This document shows positions 5,265-29,433 of a DNA stretch of 39,203 nt, in pieces. The notes under the pieces were generated by a model. That model worked only from the letters and a program-made list of their open reading frames with translations, was not told the DNA's origin and did not search any database. The translations under genes and the position numbers were made by a program. The number at the start of each line of letters is the position of its first letter. Positions within the stretch are counted from its first letter, which is position 1. Source of the stretch: Candidatus Woesebacteria bacterium GW2011_GWB1_33_22 (GTDB lineage Bacteria; Patescibacteriota; Microgenomatia; UBA8517); assembly GCA_000989765.1 (NCBI GenBank), contig LBOW01000007.1:1-39203 (forward strand), in the 5' to 3' direction.

Positions 5265-5466
5265 ATTTTTTTTGATATTGTTAAGCTTCCTTGCAATATT
5301 TATTTCCATAAATTCAATTGTTTTTTTGCCAGTTGCTGTATTTTTAGTCACAACATTAATTACAAATAGTGATGAATTTAATTTAACAAAGCATAAAAAA
5401 ACATTATTTTATTTTTTAGGATCAATAATTATATTATCTTTAATCTCAGTTTCTAAATTTATATGA
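5257..5466 (+). CDS. Small membrane protein with two hydrophobic segments
   Basis: The 69 residues are mostly hydrophobic, with segments at about 3-36 and 49-66 separated by a charged loop (NSDEFNLTKHKK). The start overlaps the previous gene by 8 bases and the stop overlaps the next start by 4 bases (ATGA), which indicates translational coupling in a three-gene unit. The family is unknown. Confidence 0.5.
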   Translation: MNKFFLILLSFLAIFISINSIVFLPVAVFLVTTLITNSDEFNLTKHKKTLFYFLGSIIILSLISVSKFI

Positions 5467-6086
5467 TTATTCGAAAAATTATCACTCTTTATGCCTTTGT
5501 AATTACCTCTTTTTTGACTATTTCTGGGATATTGGGAGCTAAGAATACTCCAGAACTTATTACTGCAATTCTTTTTTCTCCCTTAGCTTTTTATTTTTTG
5601 ATTTTAATATTGCCTAGAAAAAGCAAGGTAATTGTTAATTTTGATCCAATTTTAGATATTATTCCTGACAAAATAAAGTCAATAAAAAATCCTGATTATG
5701 ATCCTGAGAGAAGAAAATTTTTAAAATTAATAGGTGCTGCAGGAGGTTCACTTTTTCTTTTGGCAACTTTTACAAGAAAGGCGGAAGCGTCATTCTTTGG
5801 CAGTATGCCAGGACCAGGAACAGTTGCAGTTAAAAATAGTAGTGGTGTACAAATTGATCCCTCGGAAAAACACCCAACTGATGGCTATAATATTACAGAG
5901 ATTGACGATTCTGGAGTTGATACATATTATGGTTACATAAATAAAGATGGTGCTTGGTATATTCAAAAAGAACTCTCAACTGGTGCATATAGATATATAA
6001 AGGGATCATCTGACTTCACAAATGCAACCACAGGCTGGCCAAATAGAACCAATTTAACTTACAATTACTTTAATGAGGTATTTTAG
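5463..6086 (+). CDS. Membrane protein with internal twin-arginine motif and tail-like C-terminus
   Basis: The 207 residues contain two hydrophobic segments (about 7-26 and 32-50), then a classic Tat signature at 81-88 (P-E-R-R-K-F-L-K). A hydrophobic stretch (89-103) and an AxA-type site (A107-E-A109) before SFFGS follow. The last 75 residues (NITEIDDSGVDTYYGY, DGAWYIQKE, YRYIKGSSDF, LTYNYF) resemble short modules I have seen in uncultivated phage structural proteins. A Tat signal after two membrane segments is unusual. The tatA/tatC genes 12-13 kb downstream make a real Tat substrate plausible. The stop codon lies inside a hairpin shared with the convergent AbiEii gene. Confidence 0.6.
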   Translation: MIIRKIITLYAFVITSFLTISGILGAKNTPELITAILFSPLAFYFLILILPRKSKVIVNFDPILDIIPDKIKSIKNPDYDPERRKFLKLIGAAGGSLFLLATFTRKAEASFFGSMPGPGTVAVKNSSGVQIDPSEKHPTDGYNITEIDDSGVDTYYGYINKDGAWYIQKELSTGAYRYIKGSSDFTNATTGWPNRTNLTYNYFNEVF

Positions 6087-6100
6087 AAAAACTTTTCTAA
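6083..6100. terminator. Hairpin spanning convergent stop codons
   Basis: A perfect 8-bp inverted repeat with a 2-base loop (TTAGAAAA-AC-TTTTCTAA) contains the stop codons of both the plus-strand gene ending at 6086 and the minus-strand gene ending at 6083. It could act as a weak bidirectional terminator or 3'-end protection element. The stem is AT-rich and no clear U-run follows. Confidence 0.4.
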
Positions 6101-6805
6101 TTCTGTAAGTAACGGTTTTGGAAAATCTGAAATTATTGGTTTCATGCTTTTAGGAAGAAATATTGAAAGTTCATCCCCGAATTTAATTTTCTTTTTCTCT
6201 AAAATTGCACTTATTTTTTTTAATTTATCTCTTTCTGAGACAGTTAATTCCCCGTTTCTTAGAAGAAAATAAATATCATAAAAATCTCTCGGTTTACTTC
6301 TCGTGAGAGCCGCCTGAATTTTTTCCCCTATCATTTCTCTTTTGGGCAATAAATATGCCTGATATGTGGGAATATACTCGCTTAAAATATCAACAATGTC
6401 ATAATCATTTCCTATTTTCTTTCTTAACGAAATTTGTATGCTGATCAATATATTTTTTCCATATATTTTAAGATATAATTTAGCTAAGTACCCTCCAGTT
6501 GTTTCTTTTGATTCTTCAATATCACATTCCATTCCATTATTTGATAAATTTTCTAATGCGGAAAGTATTATTTCTTCTATCTCTTTTTTACCAATCTGAC
6601 AGGCTGAAAAATCTAAATCTTCTGAAAATCTAGGACTTTTATACGCGATTCTGTATGCAGTACCGCCCTTAAACAAAATCTTATTAGAATTTTTGACTTG
6701 ATATAACGATGATAAAAACAAGTGCTGTGCGTATTCACGATAAACGTTCTCTTTAAACGTCTGATACTTGTTTTGAACAATTAAAAGTCTTTCCTTAGTT
6801 AACAT
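6083..6805 (-). CDS. abiEii: AbiEii-family nucleotidyltransferase toxin (module 1)
   Basis: The 240-residue protein has the DNA polymerase beta-like nucleotidyltransferase motif of AbiEii/AbiGii toxins: FKGGTAYR (residues 45-52) followed by RFSEDLDFS (59-67), whose two acidic residues are expected to bind metal. RDFYDIYFLL (about 173-182) is the conserved C-terminal element. In characterised AbiE systems this partner transfers nucleotides to tRNA acceptor ends and halts growth during phage infection. It lies 5 bases after its antitoxin gene, in the usual AbiEi-AbiEii order. All key residues appear intact. Confidence 0.85.
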   Translation of the reverse strand: MLTKERLLIVQNKYQTFKENVYREYAQHLFLSSLYQVKNSNKILFKGGTAYRIAYKSPRFSEDLDFSACQIGKKEIEEIILSALENLSNNGMECDIEESKETTGGYLAKLYLKIYGKNILISIQISLRKKIGNDYDIVDILSEYIPTYQAYLLPKREMIGEKIQAALTRSKPRDFYDIYFLLRNGELTVSERDKLKKISAILEKKKIKFGDELSIFLPKSMKPIISDFPKPLLTELEKFF

Positions 6806-6810
6806 TTTAT

Positions 6811-7383
6811 TTAAAAAATTTTATTAATTAAATTATTTAATCTGGTGTCATCAAAAAACTTGGAATAGTACTTAATCTTATCCTTATTTAATTTAGTCAA
6901 ACTCATTCTTTCATTTAAAACACGCTTTCCTAACGAAACAAAATATAAATAATCGCAAACTGCTTTTTCAGGCTCGGCTATTAAAGTATCATCCATGATT
7001 AAATAGCCGGTGTATGCCTGTTTTTTGATTTTATAATACTTATAAATTGTTTGCTCATCTGTAAATTCTCTAGTTGCTTTTGTGGTTATTGAAGTTATTG
7101 AATATACAGTTTCTGGAATAATATTATAAAATGAAAGTGCACTCTCTAGCGATATATATGACGGAAAATAAGCCTTATTTGCAATTTTATTTTTATCGTG
7201 TATCTCCCCTTTTAAATAATAAACTCCTTTTTTTGGGCTTATTAAGTAGCCTAATTTTTTATATCTTGATAATTTGACAGCAGAAACTTCATTTGAAATA
7301 TTAAAAATATTTACAAAATCTTGATTTGTAAATACTTCAAGATTATGCTCTTTTAATGCCTGTCTCACTTGTTGGAAATTCAT
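6811..7383 (-). CDS. abiEi: AbiEi-like antitoxin / transcriptional regulator (module 1)
   Basis: I placed the start at the ATG at 7383. A longer frame from a TTG at 7431 is unlikely because that TTG is the first codon of the TTGACA -35 box of the promoter. The 190-residue protein has an N-terminal winged-helix region (LSRYKKLGYLISPKKGVYYLKG) and an AbiEi core (YFPSYISLESALSFYNIIPE, AEPEKAVCDYLYF). AbiEi proteins bind inverted repeats in their own promoter and neutralise AbiEii. Its neighbour downstream is the cognate toxin. Confidence 0.8.
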   Translation of the reverse strand: MNFQQVRQALKEHNLEVFTNQDFVNIFNISNEVSAVKLSRYKKLGYLISPKKGVYYLKGEIHDKNKIANKAYFPSYISLESALSFYNIIPETVYSITSITTKATREFTDEQTIYKYYKIKKQAYTGYLIMDDTLIAEPEKAVCDYLYFVSLGKRVLNERMSLTKLNKDKIKYYSKFFDDTRLNNLINKIF

Positions 7384-7402
7384 TTTATTAACAACTTCGT
7401 TA

Positions 7403-7431
7403 ATTATATGAACTTGCAAGAATTTTGTCAA
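7403..7431 (-). promoter_or_regulatory. Consensus sigma70-type promoter of AbiE module 1
   Basis: Reading the minus strand, TTGACA (7431-7426), a 17-base spacer and TATAAT (7408-7403) form a perfect consensus promoter. Transcription should start near 7396, about 12 bases before the ATG at 7383. A TTAAC/GTTAA inverted repeat lies in the short leader and may be part of an AbiEi operator. Confidence 0.8.
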
Positions 7432-7473: not shown

Positions 7474-9573
7474 ATGGCAGTACCAAGTTACACAACAGAC
7501 CTATCATCACAAACAATTAGTGAATGTGAAAGTAACTCAACTCCTCTCGTATTTACGAATATAGGAACTGGGGCTGATGCTACAGAAACTGATTATTTTA
7601 TTCAAAAAACAGCCTGTGTTTCAAAACCTTTTAACATTACAGCTGGTGGTATTTATGTTACGACGAGTCAGGCTATAACCACAAGTGGTCATTGTTTTTG
7701 GGCTTGGTATTATTTTGGTTGCCCAAATGCTTTATTGGGAGAAACTTCAGGTGGTATGCAAGCAATGGTGGGTCAATCGGTTAGTAATTATGATAAATGG
7801 GATATTTTTGGTTCTGATACTTATACTTACGGAGGTTGGAGATGTGTTCCAGTGGATATATTAAATATTGGTTATGATGATAGGGTTGGTTCGGGTAAGG
7901 GTTCATCTCCATATCTAATTTTTGGAGTATATGCAAACACCTCAACTGGTATTGGTAAGGGAAATCCTTTGGGTATAGATGTCATGAGATATGGCAGAGG
8001 AGAAATGAGAATAGCTGGGGGTTCATCTGGAGATGGATATGCTACTTTCTCAGGATTTGCTACAGAAAATGACAGTATAAATAATAGATGGGGATTATTC
8101 CAAGTAATTGACGGTGCTTATTTGTGGCAAGGTTTGATGATTTTAGGTTATGGTGCTTTAACTGAATTTACCGATTCTAACAAAAACATTCTGATTGCTA
8201 ATACTAAAAAGGTACAGTCGGATTTTAATAAAATAGAAATTAGAAACGCATCAAGTATTATTAACTGGACAGGTATTCAGATTTCGTCTTTAGGAACAAC
8301 TGCAAAAGGACTTTTTGTAATGACAGATAATGCAGATGTAAATTTAGATACTTGTACTTTTATTGACATGGGTACATTTACGTTTCAAAGTAATGCCGTT
8401 TCAATAGGAACTATTTTTAGACGCTGTGAATTAGTAACTCAAGGTGGTGCTCCTTTTACAAATTGTACATTTGATTCTACAAATGATACTGCCAAAGCAC
8501 TTTTATCAAACAACCCTGCAAATTTGTCAAATTGTAATTTTATCTCAAGCGGTACAAAACACGGAGTTGAATTTAATACACAAGGTACATTTACTTGGTC
8601 AGGTAATATTTTTACAGGTTATGCATCAACAGACGGATCAACAGGAGACGAAGCGGTTTATAACAACTGCACTCCATACAATACAGGTCAAACACATCCA
8701 AGTTCCAATCAAGACAGTACTCTTTCATTAAGATCAGATGCTGGAGGGACATCGGCTACGGGCGAATCTTTTGCTGCAGGTGCTACAAAAATTCTTTCAG
8801 TAGCTAGATTTTATCTCAAAAAAACAGGCTCCCCAACAGGTAATGCAACAGCTAAAATATATGCGGTAACAGGATCTTCTGGATCATACACACCAACAGG
8901 AACTGCTTTAGCTACTTCCGAAAACTTTAATGTAGCTAATCTTACTGGAAGTTATGCTATGAATAGCTTCATATTTAAGCTAACAAACAGTATCACATTA
9001 ACATCAACCACAAATTATTTTGTAGTTATAGATGTCAGTGCCACAACTTCAAGTGCGGGCAACACTATTGATGTGGGCTATGAAAACACAACCCCTTCTT
9101 TTGCCACAGGAAATGCGGCAACCTATGCTGTAACTGGTAGTACATGGACTAATCAGGCATACGATTTAATTTTTGATTGTTATACAGACGGTGCAATTAT
9201 TCTAAATCTATCAGGCGGTGGTTCCACACCAACTATAAGAAACGCAATAGGCTGTTCAACATCAATCTCGGCTTCAGTTAATATATCCGTATATGTTGTG
9301 GATACGTCAAATTCACCTCTAAATGACGTTCAAGTTGCAATATTTAGAACAAGTGATGATTTAGAAATAATGAACAAAGACACAGGCTATGATGTTGAAG
9401 GAAACGGTTATGCAACAACCACATACAATGGAACAACCCCTGCAAACATATATCTAAGAGTCAGAAAGGCTTCAACCGGAACCAAATATATTCCAGTTTC
9501 ATCAACAGGAACGATTCAAAGCGGTTCAGGTTATTCAACCACAATTACATTATCAATAGACACTAATGCCTAA
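7474..9573 (+). CDS. Tail-like right-handed beta-helix surface protein
   Basis: The 699-residue protein starts MAVPSYTTDLSSQTISE, an opening I know from structural proteins of uncultivated tailed phages. Residues about 240-400 form beta-helix rungs (NADVNLDTCTFIDMG, GTIFRRCELVTQGGAPFTNCTFDS, NLSNCNFISSG), as in pectate-lyase-like tail spikes. Residues about 430-570 resemble a carbohydrate-binding-like beta-sandwich (ATAKIYAVTGSSGS, TSTTNYFVVIDVS). The end (SASVNISVYVVDTSNSPLNDVQVAIFR) resembles a carboxypeptidase-regulatory-like beta domain. There is no signal peptide, so the export route is unclear. The -10 TAATAT (7461-7466) with an upstream TG would start the mRNA at the ATG. The stop overlaps the convergent AbiEii gene by 4 bases. 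Confidence 0.7.
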   Translation: MAVPSYTTDLSSQTISECESNSTPLVFTNIGTGADATETDYFIQKTACVSKPFNITAGGIYVTTSQAITTSGHCFWAWYYFGCPNALLGETSGGMQAMVGQSVSNYDKWDIFGSDTYTYGGWRCVPVDILNIGYDDRVGSGKGSSPYLIFGVYANTSTGIGKGNPLGIDVMRYGRGEMRIAGGSSGDGYATFSGFATENDSINNRWGLFQVIDGAYLWQGLMILGYGALTEFTDSNKNILIANTKKVQSDFNKIEIRNASSIINWTGIQISSLGTTAKGLFVMTDNADVNLDTCTFIDMGTFTFQSNAVSIGTIFRRCELVTQGGAPFTNCTFDSTNDTAKALLSNNPANLSNCNFISSGTKHGVEFNTQGTFTWSGNIFTGYASTDGSTGDEAVYNNCTPYNTGQTHPSSNQDSTLSLRSDAGGTSATGESFAAGATKILSVARFYLKKTGSPTGNATAKIYAVTGSSGSYTPTGTALATSENFNVANLTGSYAMNSFIFKLTNSITLTSTTNYFVVIDVSATTSSAGNTIDVGYENTTPSFATGNAATYAVTGSTWTNQAYDLIFDCYTDGAIILNLSGGGSTPTIRNAIGCSTSISASVNISVYVVDTSNSPLNDVQVAIFRTSDDLEIMNKDTGYDVEGNGYATTTYNGTTPANIYLRVRKASTGTKYIPVSSTGTIQSGSGYSTTITLSIDTNA

Positions 9574-10289
9574 ACTGTTTTTAACAGTTTACTAATTTCT
9601 GTTTTTAAAACAGCTATTATCTGTTTTTGACTACGGGGCAAGAATTGACCAAGATCTTTTTCAAGAGATTTTTGGGGGAATTTTTCTAAATTTTCGATAT
9701 CACTTTTTTTGATATCAATTATCTTTATGCTCTTTGAGAGTAAAAACCATATATCAAAAATATCTCTACCTTTATTCCTATTTTTTAATGCATCAAATTT
9801 TTCCAATAAAATTGATTCTCCTGACAAATGATAAATTTGAGGGAAAATCATAATTGGAAATTGTGTGTTTAGTGTTGAAACTTTTGTACCTAGTACTTTT
9901 TTTTGTTGGTGAAAATCAAGCCTAATACTAAATGGGTATCTAAACTCTTTTTGACTAAAAATTATTCTAAAACGTATTCCTTCTGTACCTTTATAGAAAG
10001 GTTTAATTATTAAATTAGGCAGTTCTTTACTTATTTTATTCTCAATACTTTTAAGTAAATTAATAATTTCGGAATTAGAACAACTTGTAGAAAAATCCAA
10101 GTCTTCAGAAAACCTAGGAGAGCCAAAAATTAACCTTAATGCAGTTCCCCCCTTAAAAAATAACTTGTTTGCTGTTCTCTCCTGATACAAATAACTTAAA
10201 AATGTAAGTTGTAAGTATTCTCTAAAAATACTATATTCGTCAATTTTAAAACTTTTTGATAAATATTTAATTTGATCTTTAGTAATCAT
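9570..10289 (-). CDS. abiEii: AbiEii-family nucleotidyltransferase toxin (module 2)
   Basis: The 239 residues carry FKGGTALR (45-52) and RFSEDLDFS (59-67) at the same positions as module 1, and GRDIFDIWFLL near residue 173. The expected activity is nucleotide transfer to tRNA ends, by analogy with characterised AbiEii. It overlaps its antitoxin gene by 4 bases (translational coupling). Apart from the core motifs it differs clearly from module 1, so it is not a recent local duplicate. Confidence 0.85.
   Translation of the reverse strand: MITKDQIKYLSKSFKIDEYSIFREYLQLTFLSYLYQERTANKLFFKGGTALRLIFGSPRFSEDLDFSTSCSNSEIINLLKSIENKISKELPNLIIKPFYKGTEGIRFRIIFSQKEFRYPFSIRLDFHQQKKVLGTKVSTLNTQFPIMIFPQIYHLSGESILLEKFDALKNRNKGRDIFDIWFLLSKSIKIIDIKKSDIENLEKFPQKSLEKDLGQFLPRSQKQIIAVLKTEISKLLKTV
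9571..9591. terminator. Hairpin spanning convergent stop codons
   Basis: A perfect 7-bp inverted repeat (TAAACTG, 7-base loop, CAGTTTA) includes the stop codon of the tail-like gene and overlaps the end of the convergent AbiEii gene. The layout mirrors the hairpin at 6083-6100. It may be a bidirectional terminator, but the stem is short. Confidence 0.4.
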
Positions 10290-10870
10290 ATGTGTTTTTT
10301 AATCTCTTGAAATACTGTTTTATTATACATTCTCGCCCACTTTAAAAGTAATTTTTTATCGAGATTCGTCATATCGATTTCGTCCCAATCAAGATTTACT
10401 AATCCCTTCGAAGCGAAGTAAACATAGTCTAACAATGCTTTTTCGGGCGTAGCAATCAAAAAGTCTTCTTTTTTTTCAAATCCCCAAAATAGTTTAGTGT
10501 CAATTTTGGAATAACTATAATCTTTTTCATTTATTAATAAATGTTTTGATTTTTTTATAGTAATTCCTGTTATTTGGTATGAAAATGCAGTTATAATATT
10601 ATGAAATGATAAAGCAGATTGCAACGAAACATATGATGGATAGCACAAAAAGTTTGATATTGTAAAATCATTTGTATCTTTTAAGGTAAAAAGATATTTG
10701 CCTTTCATTAAATTTTGCAAAATACCACTTTTACTAAGTCTCTGAATTCTTTTATATAATGATTGACGATTATTAGAACCCAAAACTCCTCCAAGCTCAT
10801 TCAGGCAAAACAAAGGCAAATTCTTTGATGCTAATCTTTTGATTATTGTACTTAAAGTTAACGATTCCAT
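10286..10870 (-). CDS. abiEi: AbiEi-like antitoxin / regulator (module 2)
   Basis: The 194-residue protein has an N-terminal winged-helix segment (NRQSLYKRIQRLSKSGILQNLMKGKYLF) and the AbiEi core (CYPSYVSLQSALSFHNIITA, IATPEKALLDYVYFASKG). The start ATG at 10870 sits 10 bases after a consensus -10 box. It should repress its own promoter and neutralise the toxin encoded just downstream. Confidence 0.8.
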   Translation of the reverse strand: MESLTLSTIIKRLASKNLPLFCLNELGGVLGSNNRQSLYKRIQRLSKSGILQNLMKGKYLFTLKDTNDFTISNFLCYPSYVSLQSALSFHNIITAFSYQITGITIKKSKHLLINEKDYSYSKIDTKLFWGFEKKEDFLIATPEKALLDYVYFASKGLVNLDWDEIDMTNLDKKLLLKWARMYNKTVFQEIKKHI

Positions 10871-11132: not shown

Positions 11133-11612
11133 ATGAAAAAGGAAGTAACCCTTGTTATAACCGTCTGTTTGTTTCTTTTGGCTTATGTTTTAGATTATTT
11201 TGCTGGAAGTATTAATTTAGGCTTAATAAACCCCATGGATTTTTTAAATCAAACTTATTTTAAATTGTATCCAATGACTTTTGTTGCTGTGATAATTAGA
11301 TCAGTTGCCATAACGCTTTCTACTACTTTAGTGTTATCTATAATGGAAAGGCAGTTTTTTAAAAAGATGATAATTTCGCTTTTTTTAGGATTTGTAGCTG
11401 AAATTTATGCATTTCAGATTTTAGCTACAGGAGCTAAAGTTACTCCAACTCTGTGGACCCTAGCAATTTCATACGGAGGCGCGCTACTTATCATTCCTAT
11501 AGCCTTTTACATATTTGCAAGTATTGCAGACTTCCTCATTCCACAAAGAAAAAATGCGACACACCTACCCACTAACCAGACAGATAATTCTTCTTCCGTC
11601 CTTAATCCTTGA
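11133..11612 (+). CDS. Four-helix membrane protein, unknown
   Basis: The 159 residues contain four likely membrane helices (about 5-24, 48-68, 76-98 and 107-133) and a polar, Asn/Thr-rich tail. No catalytic motif is visible and I do not recognise the family. Its TGA stop lies within the -35 box of the promoter for the third AbiE module, so the two transcription units are packed head to tail. Confidence 0.6.
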   Translation: MKKEVTLVITVCLFLLAYVLDYFAGSINLGLINPMDFLNQTYFKLYPMTFVAVIIRSVAITLSTTLVLSIMERQFFKKMIISLFLGFVAEIYAFQILATGAKVTPTLWTLAISYGGALLIIPIAFYIFASIADFLIPQRKNATHLPTNQTDNSSSVLNP

Positions 11613-11644: not shown

Positions 11645-12217
11645 ATGTCTGGACTAAATAACATACTTAGAAGCTCACAAACAGTTTTTACATTTAACGA
11701 TGTAGCTTTGATATTCAGGGAAACTAACAAAAAATCTATTATTTCCAAGGTCAATTATTATATAAAAAAAGGTCAACTGGTAAGAATTAGGAAAGGAATT
11801 TATGCAAAAGATGAAAACTATAATACATTTGAACTAGCTTCAAAAATTTATACACCTGCATACATAAGTTTTGAAACAGTACTTACACAAAATGGAATTA
11901 ATTTTCAATTTTATAGTCAAATATTTATAGCTTCATATTTAACTAGGGAAATAACTGTTGGAAATCAAATTTATAAATTTAAAAAGATAAAGGACTCAAT
12001 TCTTGTAAACCCTATTGGAATTGAAAATAAAAATAAAATATCAATAGCAACTAAAGAACGAGCACTATTAGACACTCTTTATATAGATGGCGACTACCAT
12101 TTTGATAATTTAGATTCAATTAATTGGAATATAGTCAATGAAATTTTAGCAATTTACAAAAATAAAAGAATGAACAAAAATATAAATGAATTATATGCTA
12201 AATATCGACAAACATAG
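11645..12217 (+). CDS. abiEi: AbiEi-like antitoxin / regulator (module 3)
   Basis: The 190-residue protein has a winged-helix N-terminus (SIISKVNYYIKKGQLVRIRKG, followed by IYAKDE) and a divergent AbiEi core (YTPAYISFETVLTQNGINF, IATKERALLDTLYIDGDY). The layout matches the other two modules but in the opposite orientation. It overlaps the toxin gene by about 23-32 bases depending on the toxin start. Confidence 0.75.
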   Translation: MSGLNNILRSSQTVFTFNDVALIFRETNKKSIISKVNYYIKKGQLVRIRKGIYAKDENYNTFELASKIYTPAYISFETVLTQNGINFQFYSQIFIASYLTREITVGNQIYKFKKIKDSILVNPIGIENKNKISIATKERALLDTLYIDGDYHFDNLDSINWNIVNEILAIYKNKRMNKNINELYAKYRQT

Positions 12218-12878
12218 AAATATAATTTTTCAAATCTTAAAAGATATTGCGGGAGACATAGATATCTCCCCCATTTTAGGTTTTAAGGGTGGGACTGCAG
12301 CCTTAATTTTTTACGGCCTCAACCGTTTCTCGGTTGATTTAGATTTTGATCTTTTAGATGAATCAAAAGAAGACATTGCCTTCGAAAAGGTAAAAGAAAT
12401 TGTAAGCCATTATGGAACAATAAAAGAAGCTCGCAAAAAAAGATTTAACTTAGTCTTTATTATTTCTTACGAGGAAAGCATGCAAAGTGTAAAAGTTGAG
12501 ATAAACAGGAGAACATACGGGTCTAAATATGAGCTTAAAAATCACTTGGGGGTTTCGGTCTTAGTAATGACAAAGGAAGATATGTTTGCCAATAAATTAA
12601 TGGCAATGTATGAAAGAATCGGAAAAACTAGCCGTGATATTTATGATGTCTGGTTTTTTTCGAAACAAAATTGGGAAATTAATAAAAAACTTGTTGAAGC
12701 AAGATCAGGAAAAATTTTTAGTGAAATAGTCAAAGCAAACATAAAAAGTTTAGAGAGAATGAGTGACAAAAATATATTAAAAGGTCTTGGAGAACTTTTA
12801 ACCCAAAGCCAAAAAGACTGGGTAAAAGCAAAACTTAAGATTGACACTATTTTTTTGCTAAAATTGTTGCTTAACTAA
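12186..12878 (+). CDS. abiEii: AbiEii-family nucleotidyltransferase toxin (module 3)
   Basis: The 230-residue protein carries FKGGTAALIFYGLNRFSVDLDFD (contiguous from residue 33: the KGGT and SxDLDF motifs) and RDIYDVWFF (about 150-158). The start is either the ATG at 12186 or the one at 12195; both fall inside the antitoxin gene. It belongs to a different AbiEii subgroup from modules 1 and 2, with a shorter N-terminus before KGGT (33 rather than 45 residues). Confidence 0.85.
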   Translation: MNYMLNIDKHRNIIFQILKDIAGDIDISPILGFKGGTAALIFYGLNRFSVDLDFDLLDESKEDIAFEKVKEIVSHYGTIKEARKKRFNLVFIISYEESMQSVKVEINRRTYGSKYELKNHLGVSVLVMTKEDMFANKLMAMYERIGKTSRDIYDVWFFSKQNWEINKKLVEARSGKIFSEIVKANIKSLERMSDKNILKGLGELLTQSQKDWVKAKLKIDTIFLLKLLLN

Positions 12879-13018: not shown

Positions 13019-15460
13019 ATGGCAGATACAATACTAAGCGGACGCTGGGTCGTATATTATGGCGCAGAAAATCGACAAAAACGAATTTGGAGAGATACAG
13101 TAGTTACTCCAACTGTAACCGATACAGTTAATGCTTTATATTCCGCACTACAAAATCAATTTGATGAGTTAACACAAATGGATGATGGTGTTCCAATGTC
13201 TGCTCAGACCCCTACTGAGTATACGATTGGTATTATTGATGCCGGAGATAAAGACCCATGGTTTATTGACAGAACTTCAGTTGAATATTTATCTGGTGGT
13301 GCTTTAAAAACTGCCAGTTGGGATAGAGTAACTGGAACAAACACTGGAATTTTAAAAATTGTTTGTAATAACACAGATATTGTCTCAGGAGATATTGGAT
13401 TAGATATTACAATTGCTGGTAATACTGGAACTCTACTTGATGTCAAAGGAACCGGTGCTGGGTCTATTCTTTGGGTTAGACCGGATGATAACAGTGCAAC
13501 GAACGATTTTGATGATGCAGGAACTCTAACCTGTAATGCACATACAGCTACTTGGACTTCAACGGCATCTGCAGGAGAATCTCTTTGGGCTAATATCTAT
13601 ACTCTTGGTACCATTGAATCAAACACTCATTTGTACATAAGCCAGAATGGTGCTAATCTAACCGCCTACAAAGATACAACTGATTGGTGGGGTGATGGAC
13701 ACATTGATATTCTAGTTAATGTTAAAGAACTCGGAGTTGAAACAGACGAAGGATATATTGGAGTTTTTGCTAGACAATATAGTAAAACTTATTCCTATTA
13801 CACAGTGGACTTAACTAACGGAGGTCGTAACCCTATTCCCCTTCAAACAGGTAATGACTTGGATAACCAAACAGGTTACTGGACGTTTACAGGCACCTCC
13901 GGTACGGGAACATTTGTAGTTGGAGAAGTTATTTCTAAATCTGGAACATTTAAAAAGGGTGTCATTACGTCTGTTACTGGCTCCCCAGGTACAACCCCTA
14001 CAATTGTTTATTATTTAATCGGCGATCCTATTACAAATTTTTCAAACGGTGATACATCTGTAACTGGTGCAACATCAGGAGCAACTGTAACCGCAGGAAC
14101 ACCAGCAGCAGCAGGACCTTCTGCTCTTGGCACTGCACCTGTTATCGTTCATGGGGGTTTAGCAGATGGTGGAACTAATGATATTGACGAAAATGGAACT
14201 CCTGAAAACTACTCTATAACAGTTGATTGTAACCAAAATTCTTTGGCTAATGTTTACCAACATTCAAAATACATAACAAGAAGAGGAGAGACAGCAACAA
14301 CAAACACAGATGACTTACAAGGTCAATTTTATATCGGATCAGATTACAGATTAAGATATTCAGGCTCCATTACAGGAACATTTTCTGAAGGTAATACTTG
14401 TACTCAAACTACTTCAGGGGCAAAAGGAACAATAGTTGAGGTTAATACCACAGATAAAATCGTGATACTTCGCAATTCAAGAGGCACATTTGATACAACA
14501 AATATTGTAACAGATGATACAGCAAGTGGAACATTTACTCCAAACTCAGAAGCCTCGGCTGTTACACCTATAGCAGCTGCACCATTCGGAACTTTTGCTG
14601 GAGGAAAGTTCTTCTGTGCACCTGGAGTTGTACTATCTGATTATTTAACTGCTGATGCTAATAACTTTCAATTGGTTGATGATAATGGAACAGTACGTCT
14701 TGCACCCACTAAAGCAACAATTACAGTAAGTAATACCAGAGCCGGTGATAAAGTTGCAGTCTTTAGATTGACAGGATCTGGAGCCGATATTAATAAGGCT
14801 GAGTATAATGCAACAGTTCAGTCTCAGGCTACGACAACGGTAGTTTTAGGTGTACCAATTACGACAGATTCACCCGGAAAATCTGCGGGAGGTGTTATAA
14901 GACTTGTTGACACTTCTGCTACTAAAGAATATCGGTTAAGGTTTTCGTCTTGGACTAACACTCCAAACGGAACATTTAACCTAGCCTATACAAACGTTGC
15001 CTCTGCAGATTCTGGTACTACCACAACCAACATAACAGAAACTGGAATTGGCACTGCAAGTTTTGTTGGAGATTTAGTATTAAACGTAACCCAATCTAAT
15101 GCAGTTTCATATGTTACAGCGATAGTTGACGCTAACAATGTGACAATATCCCCAGCTATTACCGGACAAACTACAGCTGATAACATTAAATTTAATGCTT
15201 TACCAGTTGCAACTACAACCTCACCACAAGACACATGGTATGTACCATTTATTGATTCATACGAAACAACAGGGTCATCAGGTACACCTGGTTCAGAATC
15301 TGTAACAATTACACATTCAACAACTGATAGTGATATTTTTATCAGAGTTCGTGCAAGACAGGCAGGTAATATTTTACCATTTGAACAGGATAGCTCAGTA
15401 GTTGGAGCCAATCCTACAAACGTATCAGTTGTCCGAACAACCGATACGATATTTGTATAA
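13019..15460 (+). CDS. Phage-tail-like structural protein, 813 aa
   Basis: The N-terminus (WVVYYGAENRQKRIWRDT, then LYSALQNQFDE, DDGVPMSAQTPTEYTIGIID, DPWFIDRTSVEYL) and GGALKTASWDR are features I recognise from conserved virion proteins in uncultivated tailed-phage contigs. The middle and C-terminus are Thr/Gly/Ser-rich beta domains with repeated 'GTF..GE...SGAKGT' units (for example around residues 300-350 and 455-510). No signal peptide or membrane helix is present. It is the first gene of a compact plus-strand run that continues into the Tat genes, suggesting that its product ends up on the cell surface. That export is an inference. Confidence 0.7.
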   Translation: MADTILSGRWVVYYGAENRQKRIWRDTVVTPTVTDTVNALYSALQNQFDELTQMDDGVPMSAQTPTEYTIGIIDAGDKDPWFIDRTSVEYLSGGALKTASWDRVTGTNTGILKIVCNNTDIVSGDIGLDITIAGNTGTLLDVKGTGAGSILWVRPDDNSATNDFDDAGTLTCNAHTATWTSTASAGESLWANIYTLGTIESNTHLYISQNGANLTAYKDTTDWWGDGHIDILVNVKELGVETDEGYIGVFARQYSKTYSYYTVDLTNGGRNPIPLQTGNDLDNQTGYWTFTGTSGTGTFVVGEVISKSGTFKKGVITSVTGSPGTTPTIVYYLIGDPITNFSNGDTSVTGATSGATVTAGTPAAAGPSALGTAPVIVHGGLADGGTNDIDENGTPENYSITVDCNQNSLANVYQHSKYITRRGETATTNTDDLQGQFYIGSDYRLRYSGSITGTFSEGNTCTQTTSGAKGTIVEVNTTDKIVILRNSRGTFDTTNIVTDDTASGTFTPNSEASAVTPIAAAPFGTFAGGKFFCAPGVVLSDYLTADANNFQLVDDNGTVRLAPTKATITVSNTRAGDKVAVFRLTGSGADINKAEYNATVQSQATTTVVLGVPITTDSPGKSAGGVIRLVDTSATKEYRLRFSSWTNTPNGTFNLAYTNVASADSGTTTTNITETGIGTASFVGDLVLNVTQSNAVSYVTAIVDANNVTISPAITGQTTADNIKFNALPVATTTSPQDTWYVPFIDSYETTGSSGTPGSESVTITHSTTDSDIFIRVRARQAGNILPFEQDSSVVGANPTNVSVVRTTDTIFV

Positions 15461-16844: not shown

Positions 16845-18143
16845 ATGGCAACACTAACTTTTTTTAAATATGAGAGAGTAATCCAAGTTGATGGTCCTCA
16901 GACATCAGTTACAATTCAGGATTTACTAAACCAAATCAGGCTCTATGAAGAAAATTTAAATAATTTAGATTATGGTCATATCGCAAATGCATACGGAAAA
17001 CAGGCTTTGGGAGCAGGTAGTTACATCGGAGTTACTTTAGAGCTTATAAATGATTGGAGAATTGCCTTTGAAGCAAGAAGTGGACCAGATACTATTGGAT
17101 GTACAATTTCAGGGGGAAATTTAGTTGCTATAAATCAATATGGTAATAATCCATTAAAGGCTACCGCTTTTACTCAAGTCAACATTGCCCAGTCTTCCTC
17201 CCCCACTATTATCCAGGCTGATGCTAATTACGGTATGCTTTATATGTTGGAAAGTATGCGGGGCAGGAATAGATCAGTTGGCGCAATTTGGTATTGGAAC
17301 CCAACTAGTGGAAACGACTCAAATGACGGTTTAACCCCATCAAATGCGGTTGCAACATTTAATAAAGCCCAAACCTTGGCAACAGCGGGTGCAGGTGATA
17401 TTATATTTGCGCTAGCAACAGCCGTCGGTGGTGTTGCAACTACTACAGAAAATATAAATGTTACTAAGGCATCTCTTAAAATAAGAGGTGCTGGTTATCA
17501 GTTCCAGATAATTCCAAGCTCACCAGGTTCCCCCACTGTCAATATTACTGGTGACTCTGTGGAATTTGAAGGATTTTATATAGGAACTGCAGCTGGTGGA
17601 ACTGATAATGGAATAGAAATTACTGGTGATAACGCCCTAATTAAAAATGTCTGGGTAAAAGAGGTAACAGGTAATGGGTTACAGGTTACAGGTTCTACAA
17701 GAACACAGATCGAAAATTCAGCGATTGAAGATTCTACTCTAACAGGGATTAAGATAGGCGCCAGCACTTCTAGAACCCTGATTAAACAATGTATATTGTC
17801 AGGCAATGACGCGGACGGTGTCGATTTGGGAGGTACAAGTATTACTGACAACATCTTTGAAAATAATTTAATTTTTAACAATACTGGTTATGGAGTTGAT
17901 GTTGGAGCAGGAGTTATAAGAACAGGCGTTAGACTTAACCATACTTTTTCAGGCAACACATTAGGAGCAACTAGAGACTTAGGAACCGCTACATTTATAG
18001 AAACCCCTGCAGGTGGCGCATCAGCATCAGATATTGCCGATGCTGTTTGGGATGAAATAATTGTAAGTCATACAGTACCTGGAACAGCAGGACAGGTGTT
18101 AAAAGCAACAAAACTAAAAGCTACTCTTGCTTCTCTAAAGTAG
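16845..18143 (+). CDS. Tail-fibre-like protein with beta-helix and AVW motif
   Basis: The first 120 residues (TFFKYERVIQVD, TSVTIQDLLNQIRLYE, NAYGKQALGAGSYIGVTLEL, IAFEARSGPD, ISGGNLVAIN) match a widespread N-terminal domain of uncultivated phage tail proteins. Residues about 150-380 form a right-handed beta-helix (GNDSNDGLTPSNAVATFNKA, then DNALIKNVWVKE and related rungs), as in pectin-lyase-like tail spikes. Near the C-terminus ASDIADAVWDE (about 393-403) is the 'AVW' motif common in phage tail and baseplate genes; the same motif recurs in the 777-residue protein at 20444. tatA follows after 18 bases. Confidence 0.75.
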   Translation: MATLTFFKYERVIQVDGPQTSVTIQDLLNQIRLYEENLNNLDYGHIANAYGKQALGAGSYIGVTLELINDWRIAFEARSGPDTIGCTISGGNLVAINQYGNNPLKATAFTQVNIAQSSSPTIIQADANYGMLYMLESMRGRNRSVGAIWYWNPTSGNDSNDGLTPSNAVATFNKAQTLATAGAGDIIFALATAVGGVATTTENINVTKASLKIRGAGYQFQIIPSSPGSPTVNITGDSVEFEGFYIGTAAGGTDNGIEITGDNALIKNVWVKEVTGNGLQVTGSTRTQIENSAIEDSTLTGIKIGASTSRTLIKQCILSGNDADGVDLGGTSITDNIFENNLIFNNTGYGVDVGAGVIRTGVRLNHTFSGNTLGATRDLGTATFIETPAGGASASDIADAVWDEIIVSHTVPGTAGQVLKATKLKATLASLK

Positions 18144-18161: not shown

Positions 18162-18353
18162 ATGAATATTGGACTACCAGAAATAATTTTAATTGTTTTA
18201 GTTTTAATTATCTTTGTTGGTAGTAAAAAAATGACAGAAATGGCCAGAAGTGCTGGTGAAGCTGGACGAGAGCTTAAAAAGATTAAGAAAGAATTTAGTG
18301 GAGCACAAAAAGAAGTTGAAAAAATAAAAGTGAAAGGAGGTGTTGATCTTTAA
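18162..18353 (+). CDS. tatA: TatA/B-like twin-arginine translocase subunit (1)
   Basis: The 63-residue protein has one N-terminal helix (GLPEIILIVLVLIIFVGSKK) followed by an amphipathic helix (MTEMARSAGEAGRELKKIKKEF), the TatA/TatB family plan. TatA oligomers form the protein-conducting element of the Tat pathway, which exports folded proteins bearing RR signals. The tail is more charged than in the other copies here, so this may be the TatB-like member. Its 3' end contains a near-perfect Shine-Dalgarno (AAAGGAGGTG, 18333-18342) for the next gene. Confidence 0.85.
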   Translation: MNIGLPEIILIVLVLIIFVGSKKMTEMARSAGEAGRELKKIKKEFSGAQKEVEKIKVKGGVDL

Positions 18354-18491
18354 ATGTCAAAATTAGGAACACCTGAAATTTTAATATTAGCCCTTTTGGT
18401 TGTAGTTTTTTTTGGATCCAAAAAATTACCAGAATTTATAAAGTCAATAGGACTTGCAGTCAAAGAGTTCAAAAAATCAGTCAGTGAATAA
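18354..18491 (+). CDS. tatA: TatA/E twin-arginine translocase subunit (2)
   Basis: This 45-residue gene starts at the ATG immediately after the previous TAA. The product reads GTPEILILALLVVVFFGSKK then LPEFIKSIGLAVKEFKKSVSE: one membrane helix, the FGSKKLPE hinge and an amphipathic helix, as in TatA/E. It is near the minimum length for the family. The strong ribosome site 11 bases upstream supports translation. Its end overlaps the GTG start proposed for tatC. Confidence 0.9.
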   Translation: MSKLGTPEILILALLVVVFFGSKKLPEFIKSIGLAVKEFKKSVSE

Positions 18492-19215
18492 TAAATCTAG
18501 TATTCAAGAAAATATTAACCGTTATTTTCCTCTTCTTTCAGAGGTTAGAAAGCGTCTTCTTTTTGTTGTTGCTATTTTTCTTCTTTTTGGAGTCGTTGGC
18601 TTTTTCTATTATGAAAAAATAATAGTTTTTATAATTAAATTAATCGATTTAGGAGAAGTGAATATAGTCTTTACATCACCTTTTCAATTTTTAAACCTTG
18701 CTGTTAGCTCCTCTTTATTAATAGCTACTATTGCAACAATACCTATCTTAATATATCAGTTACTGATATTTTTGAGGCCCGCATTAAAGGTAAAAGAGTA
18801 CAGATCTGTAATTGCTTTTTTACCTCTTTCAATATTTTTGTTTATAGGCGGATTTGCATTTGGTTTTTTAATGATGCGTTATGTTGTATCTATTTTCTAT
18901 TCTAAATCTCTTGAACTAAATATCGGAAACATGCTTGATATTAGTAAATTATTAAGTCAAATATTAATTACATCATCTTTAATGGGAATCGCCTTTCAAT
19001 ATCCAATTGCAATGAGTTTACTTATGCGATTTAAAATTGTTTCGCTTGAAACTTTTGTCAAACAAAGGCCTATTGCATATATTATTGCTATTTCTTTTGC
19101 TGCCTTTATGCCACCCACTGATATTTTATCCTTGATTCTTTTGACTTTGCCTCTTATACTCTTATTTGAAATAACATTATTCTTAAATAGAATACTTAGA
19201 AAGGGAGTGATTTAA
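18484..19215 (+). CDS. tatC: TatC, twin-arginine translocase receptor
   Basis: TatC is the six-helix receptor that binds RR signal peptides. I chose the GTG at 18484, overlapping the tatA stop; a TTG at 18454 would give ten more residues. Family landmarks are FPLLSEVRKRL near the N-terminus (usual HLxELRxR), IPILIYQLLIFLRPALKVKE (contains the conserved Glu of the first cytoplasmic loop), GIAFQYPIAM (family usually FExP, so Glu is replaced by Gln), and FMPPTDILSLILLTLPLILL with FEITLF. Six hydrophobic segments fit. The neighbours are three tatA-like genes. Confidence 0.92.
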   Translation: MNNKSSIQENINRYFPLLSEVRKRLLFVVAIFLLFGVVGFFYYEKIIVFIIKLIDLGEVNIVFTSPFQFLNLAVSSSLLIATIATIPILIYQLLIFLRPALKVKEYRSVIAFLPLSIFLFIGGFAFGFLMMRYVVSIFYSKSLELNIGNMLDISKLLSQILITSSLMGIAFQYPIAMSLLMRFKIVSLETFVKQRPIAYIIAISFAAFMPPTDILSLILLTLPLILLFEITLFLNRILRKGVI

Positions 19216-20443: not shown

Positions 20444-22777
20444 TCACTCGCTAAGTACATTTTGAAGGTCAACATAGGCTTCCTTTTGATCATAAACTAC
20501 CTTTACTCTGTCTCCTGCTCTTTCTATTTCAATAGCAGATTTACCAGAATCAATAATTTCCAAAACTGTCTCATCTACCACGTTTTGGTATGTTTTGACT
20601 ACACCAGATAAACTTACTAACTTTACAATTTTGATAGCTTTATAATCGATTGTAGCGGTTCCAAGGACCTCTTTATTTTGACTTGCGTAAACCGGTAAAA
20701 CCAATTTCTTAACACCAATTGATGACAATAAACCTGAGATTGTAGAAACCACTAAAAAGACAGCCAGTTTGTCATATAGGTGTTTTTTCTTGCTATGTAA
20801 TACTACTTCTTTGGCTGTCTCCTTACCCAAGAGTTTTCTCATATAAACAGTCATAAAGACAAACCCTGTTGCAATTGTGATGACTATACCCCAAACAGCA
20901 ATTGCCTGACTACCACCCACAAAACCTAATATTGATCCGGATGATGACGCAAGGGATACTAGTTCTTTTAATTTTTCAACCTGCTCTTTAACTGAGTTTA
21001 TTTCTAATTCAGCCTCCCTGTAGGCTTTAATTTTAGCTTCAGGTGTAACACCATCTTTTAACAAATCTTTAGCTTTATTTAGACTAACTCCGATATTGCT
21101 TTTAAGGGTAATTCCTTGAGCAAAATAAGCAGTTTTTTCTAAAGGTTTAACTAAATCATCAGTTTGTTTTAAAAGATTGTCTATCTCAGTTTCGCTAATC
21201 TGCCAAACATCCTCAACTCTAACTTTAACTGTTCTTGTTTCTCCCGGTTTTAATGTAAAATTACCTTCAACATAGAGTTGATCTCTTTCAGTGTCATACT
21301 TTACCTCTGCGCCCGCATCAGTTTCAATTATATGTTCTTTCTTAACTTCTTTGGGCAGGTAATACTTCAGGGGAACTTCTTGCGAAATTAAAATTGAAGG
21401 ATTTGTAATTAAAGTTTTAATTACCAAACTCCCCTCTTCTAACCAATTAGCAATCAGGACCGTTTTGGAGCCATTAATCATTAGTTTTTTATTAGCAAAT
21501 AGAAGCGCTCGAAGTCCAAGTACTTTATTTTTAAGTTTTTTATCAAGTGAAATGTTATTAAAACTGGACTCAATTACTAATTTTCCCTTAGGTACTTTAT
21601 TGATTGCTAAAACATCAAGTATTAAATCATCTACTTTATTTTTAACATCTAAATAAGAATTAGAATTCCATGAATTTAATATATTATTGCTTGCAATTAA
21701 ATTGTTTTCAATTAACAATGAATTTGCCTCATTTTCTGATATTTTCTTATTAATCAAGGATAATATTTTTTCGGATGTGGTTAAATAAACTGATGATCCA
21801 CGAAGTTCTTTTAAAAGCGCATTAGATTTGCCATAACTTGCAATTCCAGATTGTACAAACCCTAAAGAATTATTAATTGCCTTAATTTCTTCATGAAGTT
21901 CATCTCCTTCTTTTAAACCCCAAGTGTCTCGTAAAAAATTTATTTTGCCAAAGAATGAATTCGATGAAGTTGAATCACTTTCATCACCAATAATATCTTT
22001 GGCCTCACTTAGGTTATCTAAAATTTCTCGATCTGTAAGTTTAACCCAATCTTTATTTGTCTTATCAATAGTTGTGTCCAAAAACAATAAGTTGATATAT
22101 AACTCGTTAGCAACTGTTTTACTTGTTTGTATTTTTTCACTTAAATCAATGTCTTGGACCTCTTCAAGGCTATTTTCTATAATTGGTTTATTTACAAGTT
22201 GTTCTAATATCAATCTTGTTTCATTTGAAGTTGTTTTGATATTCTCGATATTGGTTGAGGTTACTGTTGTAACGATATTTTCTCCACTAGTTAATTTTCT
22301 TGTGGCATATGACCAAACATCAGCCACAATATTGTTAAAACCAGTTAATGTCCTACCAGAATATCCCCAGACAGCGGAAGAGATGTCGTTAGTCGACGGA
22401 CTACTGTCTACAGCCTCATTAATTTCGAAGCTTTTATCTATACACAAATGATCTCCATTTGTATCGCAACACATTTCACTTCTATAATAACCAGTTGTTG
22501 TTGGGCTTGAAAATGTATATCCGTACCATCCATCGGCTGTTGAAGATATTACCTGGTCTGTGATTAAAGCAGTTCCATCTGAATTTTTAACATTAAGTGT
22601 ACAGCTTGCACCGGTATCGATTGTATAATCATCGTTATACAAATATTCACCTATTGTAGTATCTGCAGCTAGAACTGTATTTACTGATAATAACAAGAAA
22701 GCTACCCCCATTACGAGAGTAGCTATCTTTGCACGTATTACGTGTGGTTTATATAATTTATTTTGGGCAGAACTCAT
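20444..22777 (-). CDS. Exported 777-aa membrane protein with AVW motifs and SH3-like end
   Basis: A Sec-like signal peptide (residues about 16-38, ending VLAAD) is followed by a beta domain (DDYTIDTGASCTLNVKNSDG, then GWYGYTFS and GYYRSEMCCD). Two AVW-type motifs follow, ISSAVWGYSGRTLTG (132-146) and VADVWSYATRKLTSG (151-165), known from phage tail/baseplate proteins. A long helical middle (about 170-600) leads to two hydrophobic segments (about 650-675 and 690-715). The C-terminal 60 residues look like a bacterial SH3-type beta domain. The start is one base after the tatA stop, so the two are an operon. It probably anchors a surface structure; function is inferred. Confidence 0.65.
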   Translation of the reverse strand: MSSAQNKLYKPHVIRAKIATLVMGVAFLLLSVNTVLAADTTIGEYLYNDDYTIDTGASCTLNVKNSDGTALITDQVISSTADGWYGYTFSSPTTTGYYRSEMCCDTNGDHLCIDKSFEINEAVDSSPSTNDISSAVWGYSGRTLTGFNNIVADVWSYATRKLTSGENIVTTVTSTNIENIKTTSNETRLILEQLVNKPIIENSLEEVQDIDLSEKIQTSKTVANELYINLLFLDTTIDKTNKDWVKLTDREILDNLSEAKDIIGDESDSTSSNSFFGKINFLRDTWGLKEGDELHEEIKAINNSLGFVQSGIASYGKSNALLKELRGSSVYLTTSEKILSLINKKISENEANSLLIENNLIASNNILNSWNSNSYLDVKNKVDDLILDVLAINKVPKGKLVIESSFNNISLDKKLKNKVLGLRALLFANKKLMINGSKTVLIANWLEEGSLVIKTLITNPSILISQEVPLKYYLPKEVKKEHIIETDAGAEVKYDTERDQLYVEGNFTLKPGETRTVKVRVEDVWQISETEIDNLLKQTDDLVKPLEKTAYFAQGITLKSNIGVSLNKAKDLLKDGVTPEAKIKAYREAELEINSVKEQVEKLKELVSLASSSGSILGFVGGSQAIAVWGIVITIATGFVFMTVYMRKLLGKETAKEVVLHSKKKHLYDKLAVFLVVSTISGLLSSIGVKKLVLPVYASQNKEVLGTATIDYKAIKIVKLVSLSGVVKTYQNVVDETVLEIIDSGKSAIEIERAGDRVKVVYDQKEAYVDLQNVLSE

Positions 22778-22778
22778 A

Positions 22779-22922
22779 TTACTTTCCTTTTACCGCATTT
22801 TTAAACTCTTTTATAGAATCGCCAATTCCTTTTGCAAGCTCTGGAAGTTTTTTGCCTCCGAAAAAGACCAAAAGTAAAACAGCAATTACTATAATTTCAG
22901 TTGCTCCTATATTTTTTAACAT
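22779..22922 (-). CDS. tatA: TatA/E twin-arginine translocase subunit (4)
   Basis: This 47-residue gene reads MLKNIGATEIIVIAVLLLVF, FGGKKLPELAKGIGDSIKEF and a short tail, a textbook TatA/E. It is closer to the copy at 19217 than to the other two. GAGGTGAG lies about 10 bases before the ATG as a ribosome site. A possible promoter is TTGACA (22987-22982) with a CATACT -10 at 18 bases. It is coupled to the 777-residue surface protein downstream (one base between stop and start). The remaining 22923-23071 stretch shows nothing else clear. Confidence 0.9.
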   Translation of the reverse strand: MLKNIGATEIIVIAVLLLVFFGGKKLPELAKGIGDSIKEFKNAVKGK

Positions 22923-23071
22923 TTAATAAAAACTCACCTCACTTTCCATTAGATAATAGTATGGTCCTTAAAGAAATATCTTGTCAAGAGGCAAATTGTG
23001 TTCGGAGTTATCTAATCATTATCTTATCATAAATATCAACATTAGCCTTGATATTGCGAAAGGTTTTGTTC

Positions 23072-23100
23072 TTGACAGAACGATAAGCAATTGATACGAT
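23072..23100 (+). promoter_or_regulatory. Promoter of the Fic gene
   Basis: TTGACA (23072-23077), 17 bases and TACGAT (23095-23100) end 7 bases before the ATG at 23108, giving a leaderless transcript. Confidence 0.7.
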
Positions 23101-23107
23101 TACTTGT

Positions 23108-24034
23108 ATGGTTAATCTGTCCTACCATTTATCTGAAGGTTTAGAAAAAAATCTTAAGGAAATTGAAGCTTTGCGTACTAAAGTTTTAACCACGCCAATT
23201 CTACCAAAAAATGAATTTAGGCTCCGTTGGGAAAGTAATATTAATAAAACATATTGGGGTTTAACTTTAGCTGATAACCCCTTAACTAAAAATCAAATAG
23301 CTAAACTTTTAGTTAATCCCCTACCTAAAAAATTATCTGACCCACAAAAGGAAGTTATAGCTTATATGAACACCTTGCAATATATTCGAAATAATTGGTT
23401 AATTGATGTTTTAGAAATTTACAATTTATCCTGTAAAAGTATTTTTGGTTCAACTATTTCCTACTATAGATCAAAAGAGGCCGGAGTAAAAAAGATTTTA
23501 GAATTTATTGAATCGGGCAAGATCCATCCTGTTATTCAGGCAGGATTATTACAAATTGAGATAATAAAGCTTTCACCATTTGAAAACGGTACCGGCAGAG
23601 TCGCAAGACTTCTTTCTCATCTAATATTAGGAAAATTTGGCTATGACCTAAGAGGACTTTTAGTTTTAGAGGATTATTACAGAGAAGATTTGATTTCATT
23701 AAAAGAAGCTACAACCTCTATTGAGAGGTACAAAAATGCGACATATTGGCTTGAATATTTTACAGAAGGCGTCAAATTGGGAATGGAAAAAGTTTTAAAA
23801 AATCTTGAAATTACAGGTTCCGAACCCGTAAGGCAGTTTGGCTGGAAACTTACAGATAGACAAAATAAAATATTAGAAAGATTGGAAAATCCAAACTTAA
23901 AAATAACCAACAAAGATGTGCAAAAGATGTTTGGGGTTTCCCAAATTACAGCCTCACGTGATTTGTCAAAAATGGCAAACCTAGGAATTTTACTCCCCCA
24001 CGGCAAAGGCAGATCAGTCTTTTACACAAAGTGA
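23108..24034 (+). CDS. Fic-family protein with degenerate active site and winged helix
   Basis: The 308-residue protein has a Fic core and a C-terminal winged helix (residues about 245-305: LTDRQNKILERL, KDVQKMFGVSQITASRDLSK). Fic enzymes AMPylate target proteins through HPFxxGNGRxxR. Here the motif reads SPFENGTGRVAR (156-167): the catalytic His is Ser and the Asn is Thr, so classical AMPylation is doubtful. The fold signature (RVARLLSHLIL, LEDYYREDL) is otherwise kept. Residues 237-241 (GSEPV) come from a REP-like palindrome inserted between the two domains. It may be a regulator that has lost catalysis, or may use a different chemistry. Confidence 0.78.
   Translation: MVNLSYHLSEGLEKNLKEIEALRTKVLTTPILPKNEFRLRWESNINKTYWGLTLADNPLTKNQIAKLLVNPLPKKLSDPQKEVIAYMNTLQYIRNNWLIDVLEIYNLSCKSIFGSTISYYRSKEAGVKKILEFIESGKIHPVIQAGLLQIEIIKLSPFENGTGRVARLLSHLILGKFGYDLRGLLVLEDYYREDLISLKEATTSIERYKNATYWLEYFTEGVKLGMEKVLKNLEITGSEPVRQFGWKLTDRQNKILERLENPNLKITNKDVQKMFGVSQITASRDLSKMANLGILLPHGKGRSVFYTK
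23811..23831. repeat. REP-like palindrome, copy 3, inside the Fic gene
   Basis: TTAC-A-GGTTC-C-GAACC-C-GTAA is a 21-base near-palindrome with one mismatched pair, sharing the GGTTCCGAACCCGTAA core with copies 1 and 2. It is read in the same frame as copy 1 (GSEPV). Confidence 0.75.
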
Positions 24035-24036
24035 GG

Positions 24037-24107
24037 TGGACTGTGGGAGAATCGAACTCCCGTCTTCGCAATGCGAATGCGGTGTATTACCTCTATACTA
24101 ACAGCCC
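24037..24107 (-). tRNA. tRNA-Ala (anticodon CGC)
   Basis: The minus strand folds as a cloverleaf: acceptor GGGCTGT/ACAGTCC with the G3-U70 pair that marks tRNA-Ala, D stem GTAT/ATAC, anticodon loop TTCGCAT (CGC), T stem GGGAG/CTCCC with loop TTCGATT, and a 4-base variable loop. The top anticodon pair is C-A. The genome encodes only CC of the CCA tail, so CCA is added enzymatically. It is 2 bases from the convergent Fic stop. Confidence 0.92.
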
Positions 24108-24117
24108 AATCCCTTAT

Positions 24118-24123
24118 TATAAT
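24118..24123 (+). promoter_or_regulatory. -10 box for the giant surface protein
   Basis: TATAAT ends 7 bases before the ATG at 24131; the -35 region falls inside the tRNA gene and is weak. It would give a leaderless mRNA. Confidence 0.45.
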
Positions 24124-24130
24124 GGTATTA

Positions 24131-29305: not shown

Positions 29306-29367
29306 AATTTAACATAAACAACACAGAATTTCACTCATGGCTTGGGCAGTAGTTTGAGGCTAGTGGT

Positions 29368-29391
29368 ATACAGATTGATACTAATTTGTAT
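29368..29391. promoter_or_regulatory. Operator-like palindrome 1 upstream of DUF4143 gene
   Basis: ATACAGATT-N6-AATTTGTAT has arms matching at 8 of 9 positions. Its centre is 33 bases (about three helical turns) from that of the palindrome at 29401. Confidence 0.5.
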
Positions 29392-29392
29392 A

Positions 29393-29424: not shown

Positions 29425-29433
29425 AGTAATAAC

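Follow-up and report, generated by a model that had tools for sequence, protein, structure and literature searches.

The DNA analysed here, hereafter the window, is a stretch of 39,203 nucleotides on contig LBOW01000007.1 of Candidatus Woesebacteria bacterium GW2011_GWB1_33_22, whose genome is 860 kb. It contains a gene, here termed P, whose product carries a twin-arginine motif behind two predicted membrane helices, and genes for TatA and TatC lie on the same strand. Patescibacteria are reported to carry Tat genes (PMC9166423), and we found no defined Tat cargo from this group in the literature searched. A sequence-only reading of the window proposed that P is a natural client of the nearby Tat genes. 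We asked whether this is so, or whether P is an ordinary membrane protein. The evidence below favours, with a probability of about 0.8, P being a dedicated client of the nearby TatAC and the representative of a new family of Sec-Tat dual-inserted membrane proteins, whose Tat dependence, topology, cleavage and surface role we infer from comparative sequence analysis.

The P protein and conservation of its motif

The motif ERRKFLK (residues 82–88), the hydrophobic stretch (89–104), the RK pair (105–106) and AEA (107–109) were all confirmed in the P sequence, and an insertion-energy scan recovered both helices expected N-terminal of the motif (Table 1). The NCBIfam model TIGR01409 (TAT_signal_seq) matched residues 82–109 with 22.3 bits (E = 1.2e-4), above its cut-off of 16.7 bits. 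No Pfam family matched P, and its closest named relative, from a Woesebacteria genome, shares 79–80% identity. P apparently belongs to an undescribed family of bacterial membrane proteins.

Table 1. Features of the P locus in the window
Feature	Position	Strand	Basis
Coupled upstream small membrane protein, 69 aa	5257..5466	+	4-bp overlap with P
P, candidate Sec-Tat dual-inserted membrane protein, 207 aa	5463..6086	+	ORF with ATG start; TIGR01409 match; homologues in 52/374 class genomes
TM1, residues 2–24, expected Sec/YidC-inserted, N-in	5466..5534	+	Insertion-energy scan
TM2, residues 32–52	5556..5618	+	Insertion-energy scan; followed by PRKSK, consistent with a cytoplasmic loop
Twin-arginine motif D80-P-E-R83-R84-K-F86-L-K88	5700..5726	+	D80, R84 and F86 invariant in 49/49
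TM3 / Tat h-region, residues 89–104, apparently weakly hydrophobic, core uncharged	5727..5774	+	
R105 K106, positive charges directly C-terminal of TM3	5775..5780	+	
AEA, residues 107–109, possible signal-peptidase site	5781..5789	+	A-x-A in 23/31 RR rows
C-terminal domain, expected extracellular	5790..6083	+	Conserved W/Y/G/D/P; remote relative in phage MW202692
Fibre-like protein without N-terminal hydrophobic segment	7474..9573	+	Relative in phage Rctr197k (tblastn E 3e-15); phage gene neighbourhood
Conserved hydrophobic protein, 159 aa, recurrent partner in fibre-type loci	11133..11612	+	Cluster in 23 genomes
Large signal-less surface-like protein, cluster-conserved	13019..15460	+	14 genomes; N-terminal hydrophobic segment absent
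Beta-helix protein directly upstream of tatA, signal-less	16845..18143	+	PF13229, 46 bits; 10 genomes
tatA	18162..18353	+	PF02416, 37 bits
tatC	18454..19215	+	PF00902, 140 bits; aligns with solved TatC structures
Second tatA-like gene, 50 aa	19217..19369	+	PF02416, 63.5 bits

Conservation was assessed across 49 full-length or near-full-length P homologues from the class. No other stretch of the protein was as well conserved as the motif, whose consensus is D-x-x-[RK]-R-x-F-L-K (mean top-residue fraction 0.77, versus 0.26 for the loop before it), and the region N-terminal of it was poorly conserved and variable in length. Position 83 was Arg in 30 homologues and Lys in 19, position 87 was Leu in 47 of 49, and position 88 was Lys or Arg, also in 47. 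At the position of the helix-capping residue described below, 32 homologues have Asp, 11 Asn, five Glu and one Ser. The arginine pair is thus conserved at its second position throughout, the first being always Arg or Lys. No homologue lacking the motif turned up in a genome with tatC: all full-length homologues carry it, and the sole motif-less member is a fragment truncated by a contig end. TRRKFIK is the motif of the deepest relative, which comes from another class and has tatC-tatA 4 kb downstream. Only five of 19 order-level members matched TIGR01409 at E 0.1, probably because the KR forms score low.

This pattern of conservation matches the contacts seen by cryo-EM, where the first Arg is water-mediated to TatC E15 and the second salt-bridged to E103, the motif Phe sits in a pocket with F94, and the helix-capping residue opens the motif (PMC13323110). 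E30 and E115 of the window TatC are equivalent to E. coli E15 and E103, and the aligned TatCs of P loci keep E15 in 29/29, F94 in 29/29 and E103 in 28/29; the E. coli contact residues H12 and Y100 are not conserved in them.

The P loci fall into two types. In type I, the genes after P encode a small hydrophobic protein and large fibre-like proteins, and P has RR in 24 of 24 loci. In type II, glycosyltransferase, methyltransferase and epimerase genes follow, with a Ser-Pro repeat protein in several, and P has KR in 14 of 17. A quick tree suggests RR as the ancestral state and gives four changes in total, most simply one to KR and three reversions. The proposed AxA site is present in window P and in 24 of 51 P rows, mostly in RR members (23/31 versus 1/20 KR rows); since it is not family-wide, cleavage would be at most a property of a subgroup, and we discarded the simple model in which all members are cleaved and secreted. 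Giant proteins of long Ser-Pro-Ser repeats were seen in type II loci (for example G018 21592-26232 and G043 29058-33947, in coordinates of the stitched regions); they end in a fibre-type domain, GTxGFNxxTxxLEYWxG, which is also encoded on its own, by a gene of ~66 aa immediately preceding tatA.

Association of P with tatC

We found the P family in 18 of the 57 genomes of the order and 52 of 374 in the class, as well as in two genomes of another class. Its occurrence follows that of tatC. In the order, 14 genomes had both genes, four P only, three tatC only and 36 neither; the corresponding numbers in the class were 38, 14, 8 and 314 (Fisher p = 2e-7 and 2e-32, respectively, values that ignore shared ancestry). 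The P-only genomes were all multi-contig drafts, mostly fragmented and with P near a contig end; in one of them (G321) about 80 kb of contig downstream of P lacks tatC. All 12 P-positive genomes listed with ten or fewer contigs had tatC. Where P and tatC lay on one contig (26 genomes), they were on the same strand in 26/26, 1.6–31 kb apart, and P preceded tatC in 22. Co-occurrence and physical linkage therefore support the proposal that P is a client of the nearby Tat genes.

As a control, we counted other TIGR01409-type Tat-signal matches in the order, which were present in 8 of 17 genomes with tatC and 19 of 40 without. Because such proteins are equally common in both groups, the association of P with tatC is specific. 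The same matches show that an RR motif alone is weak evidence of Tat use, and we dropped it as a proof in its own right, since tatC-less relatives bear textbook Tat-type signals. Such N-terminal signals (S/T-R-R-D/E-F-L-K plus a hydrophobic stretch) were seen at L125, L124, L133, L134, L127 and others in order genomes with undetectable tatC, including the single-contig G014, G028, G013 and G047; they may be relics, use Sec, or reflect undetected TatC. A second, higher-scoring type of TatC, unlinked to P, was also observed (L022, L023, L024 and f19 genomes).

Topology, locus context and competing explanations

An even number of helices (two or four) lies N-terminal of the motif in 43 of the 49 homologues, so the motif would stay cytoplasmic even where a helix pair has been added. 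The loop before the motif is 30 aa long in window P and at least 24 aa in rows where both helices were found. On an insertion-energy scale that we re-implemented, whose values serve comparison only, TM3 scored +0.39 in window P and +0.19 on average in the family (29/49 above zero), compared with a mean of −0.89 for the upstream P helices. At least one Lys or Arg follows within 11 residues of the TM3 core in 49/49 homologues, two or more in most. Known dual-inserted proteins mostly begin N-in, carry a loop of some 8 aa or more ahead of the motif, and end their membrane part in a weakly hydrophobic helix with positive charges behind it (PMC5449189). The helix parity, loop length and charges of the P family agree with these marks, and the energies of its last helix mostly lean the same way. 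A natural control is provided by the upstream neighbour, which in several genomes starts with a P-like helix pair and ends in a strongly hydrophobic last membrane helix without the motif (mean −1.51 on the same comparison-only scale).

We propose the following route. Sec/YidC would insert TM1 and TM2 with the N-terminus inside, and the cytoplasmic loop would then present the D-x-x-[RK]-R-x-F-L-K motif. TM3 is probably too weakly hydrophobic, and too positive just after, for Sec to complete its insertion; TatC would therefore recognise the motif, and Tat would insert TM3 and carry the C-terminal domain across in folded form. Release of this domain by signal peptidase may follow in RR/AxA members, whereas in KR members it would stay anchored. 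The exported domain probably acts at the cell surface, with the coupled SH3-type membrane protein and the remaining surface proteins encoded at the locus as its partners.

In relatives, the slot upstream of P is occupied by a protein with a TM helix and a bacterial SH3 domain, or by a Y1 transposase-like protein with TM and SH3 (Pfam SH3_3, Y1_Tnp). The latter (L053:982-2166(-), L054:1622-2893 and equivalents) joins a Y1 transposase domain of IS200-like type to a TM helix and bacterial SH3. In type II loci it sits immediately before P, overlapping or abutting P in many genomes; it looks like a domesticated transposase turned membrane protein. Three AbiE-type toxin-antitoxin pairs (6083-7431, 9570-10870 and 11645-12878; AbiEii Pfam 67–88 bits each) are interspersed with the surface-protein genes of the window, and AbiE-type pairs recur at the P loci of G041, G045, G008 and G018. 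Further downstream, a 1525-aa ORF (24370-28947) gave no Pfam match and shows by eye a possible C-terminal CHAP-like segment, CTDLVWDSAIAAGY...HVGIVSE.

Trp, Tyr, Gly, Asp and Pro residues are conserved in the C-terminal domain of P, and we found no conserved Cys or His in it. A PDB profile search with the domain gave nothing below E 0.5, and AlphaFold2 with a two-row alignment yielded a pLDDT of 38 for full-length P and 43 for the domain. The description of the exported part as phage-structural-like was borne out weakly for P: the best PHROGs match of the window domain had E 0.015 (the same family being matched by 2/18 members), phage tblastn of P gave E 0.1 and 0.02 on a single record, and a 26-bit profile match identified one protein in the virion gene region of phage MW202692 as a remote relative. 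The description fits the neighbour at 7474-9573 better. No phage match was obtained by tblastn with the proteins at 13019-15460 and 16845-18143.

An ordinary three-helix protein inserted by Sec/YidC, in which the Arg/Lys pair is a positive-inside signal and the tatC link reflects inheritance of a gene cluster, would account for the acceptance of KR in 19 of 49 homologues, for TM3 energies that are near zero rather than strongly positive, and for Tat-type motifs in tatC-less genomes of the order. Positive-inside topology, however, requires neither an Arg at the second position that is never Lys nor an invariant Phe at +2. It is further opposed by the motif-less, strongly hydrophobic last helix of the neighbour with a similar two-helix start, and by the positive charges on both sides of the weak TM3, which oppose Sec translocation of the C-terminus; we consider this explanation improbable. 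Far less credible still is the idea that P was left behind by the structural module of a prophage and is not a component of the cell surface. The remote relative of its domain in a phage virion region and the phage relative of its neighbour point that way, but P is chromosomal across the class and lies beside Tat genes, scans of viral contigs with the P family profile, the C-terminal domain and the beta-helix protein found no relatives, and capsid, portal and terminase genes were not recognised among the ORFs read. With phage core genes lacking and a class-wide chromosomal distribution, we rejected a prophage origin.

Another possibility is compatible with dual insertion and extends it: P may be a carrier, the sole signal-bearing member of a complex, whose C-terminal domain would bind folded, signal-less fibre-like proteins in the cytoplasm and let them hitchhike through Tat. 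Signal-less subunits are known to travel through Tat in this way in established hitchhiker complexes (PMC4273604). An N-terminal hydrophobic segment is absent from 40 of 40 large fibre-like cluster proteins that are nevertheless surface- or phage-fibre-like, and in many loci signal-less fibre-like proteins sit between P and tatAC. However, the absence of signals was judged by hydropathy only, some cargoes (600–1000 aa, possibly trimers) may be too large, and type II loci replace the fibres with glycosyltransferases and Ser-Pro repeat proteins. We regard such a carrier role as rather doubtful. The broader scheme, in which Tat in these bacteria would be dedicated to building surface structures, with tethered P exporting folded signal-less phage-fibre-like (or Ser-Pro repeat) proteins and one clade having shifted to a KR signal, is offered tentatively, as an idea that we hold to be on the unlikely side.

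If dual insertion of P is correct, the family would be a specific, testable and likely dedicated client for the little-known Tat system of these tiny uncultured bacteria, and it suggests that dual Sec-Tat insertion also serves a protein without an evident cofactor. Through this locus, Tat would be tied to surface proteins that resemble phage fibres, in bacteria believed to live on host cells, and the natural RR-to-KR switch with its reversions amounts to a natural experiment in motif reading by TatC.

Comparison with known Tat substrates

The sequence-only reading called the internal Tat signal unusual. The internal position is right: the TIGR01409 match of P, although above the curated cut-off, covers residues 82–109. 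The arrangement has precedents, since membrane proteins started by Sec and finished by Tat are known from actinobacterial Rieske proteins and three further families (PMC5449189). Known dual-inserted families typically export a cofactor-containing domain, which the mechanism does not require; P, having no Pfam match and no conserved Cys or His, departs from them here.

The KR clade has one known counterpart. Lys is poorly tolerated in the twin-arginine motif according to one review (PMC7317946), although another holds that a single Arg-to-Lys change only slows export (PMC6708511). TtrB is a native KR cargo, and was the only one known in a 2019 review (PMC6708511), so the P KR clade would be notable if confirmed; it would then exceed any other natural collection of KR Tat signals known to us. 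In both, Lys replaces the first Arg, but TtrB has an N-terminal signal on a tetrathionate reductase subunit, whereas in P the change marks a whole clade with an internal signal.

In overall design, P is close to the actinobacterial Rieske protein QcrA / Sco2149. The two share, in P by prediction, an N-in start with two (or four) Sec-type helices and a cytoplasmic loop far longer than 8 aa; a twin-arginine motif then precedes an apparently weak last helix, positive charges come next, and the C-terminal domain would lie outside the cytoplasm. Unlike QcrA / Sco2149, P lacks a Rieske or iron-sulphur domain as well as conserved Cys/His, is linked to surface-protein genes instead of the bc1 complex, and commonly has KR variants. 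The Sco3746-type proteins (5 TM), polyferredoxin (5 TM) and YkuE-like phosphoesterase (4 TM) likewise depend on Tat for their last helix, as proposed for P, and several P homologues have five helices, like the first two. Compared with these three families, P has an unrelated C-terminal domain, with no recognisable cofactor or enzyme domain.
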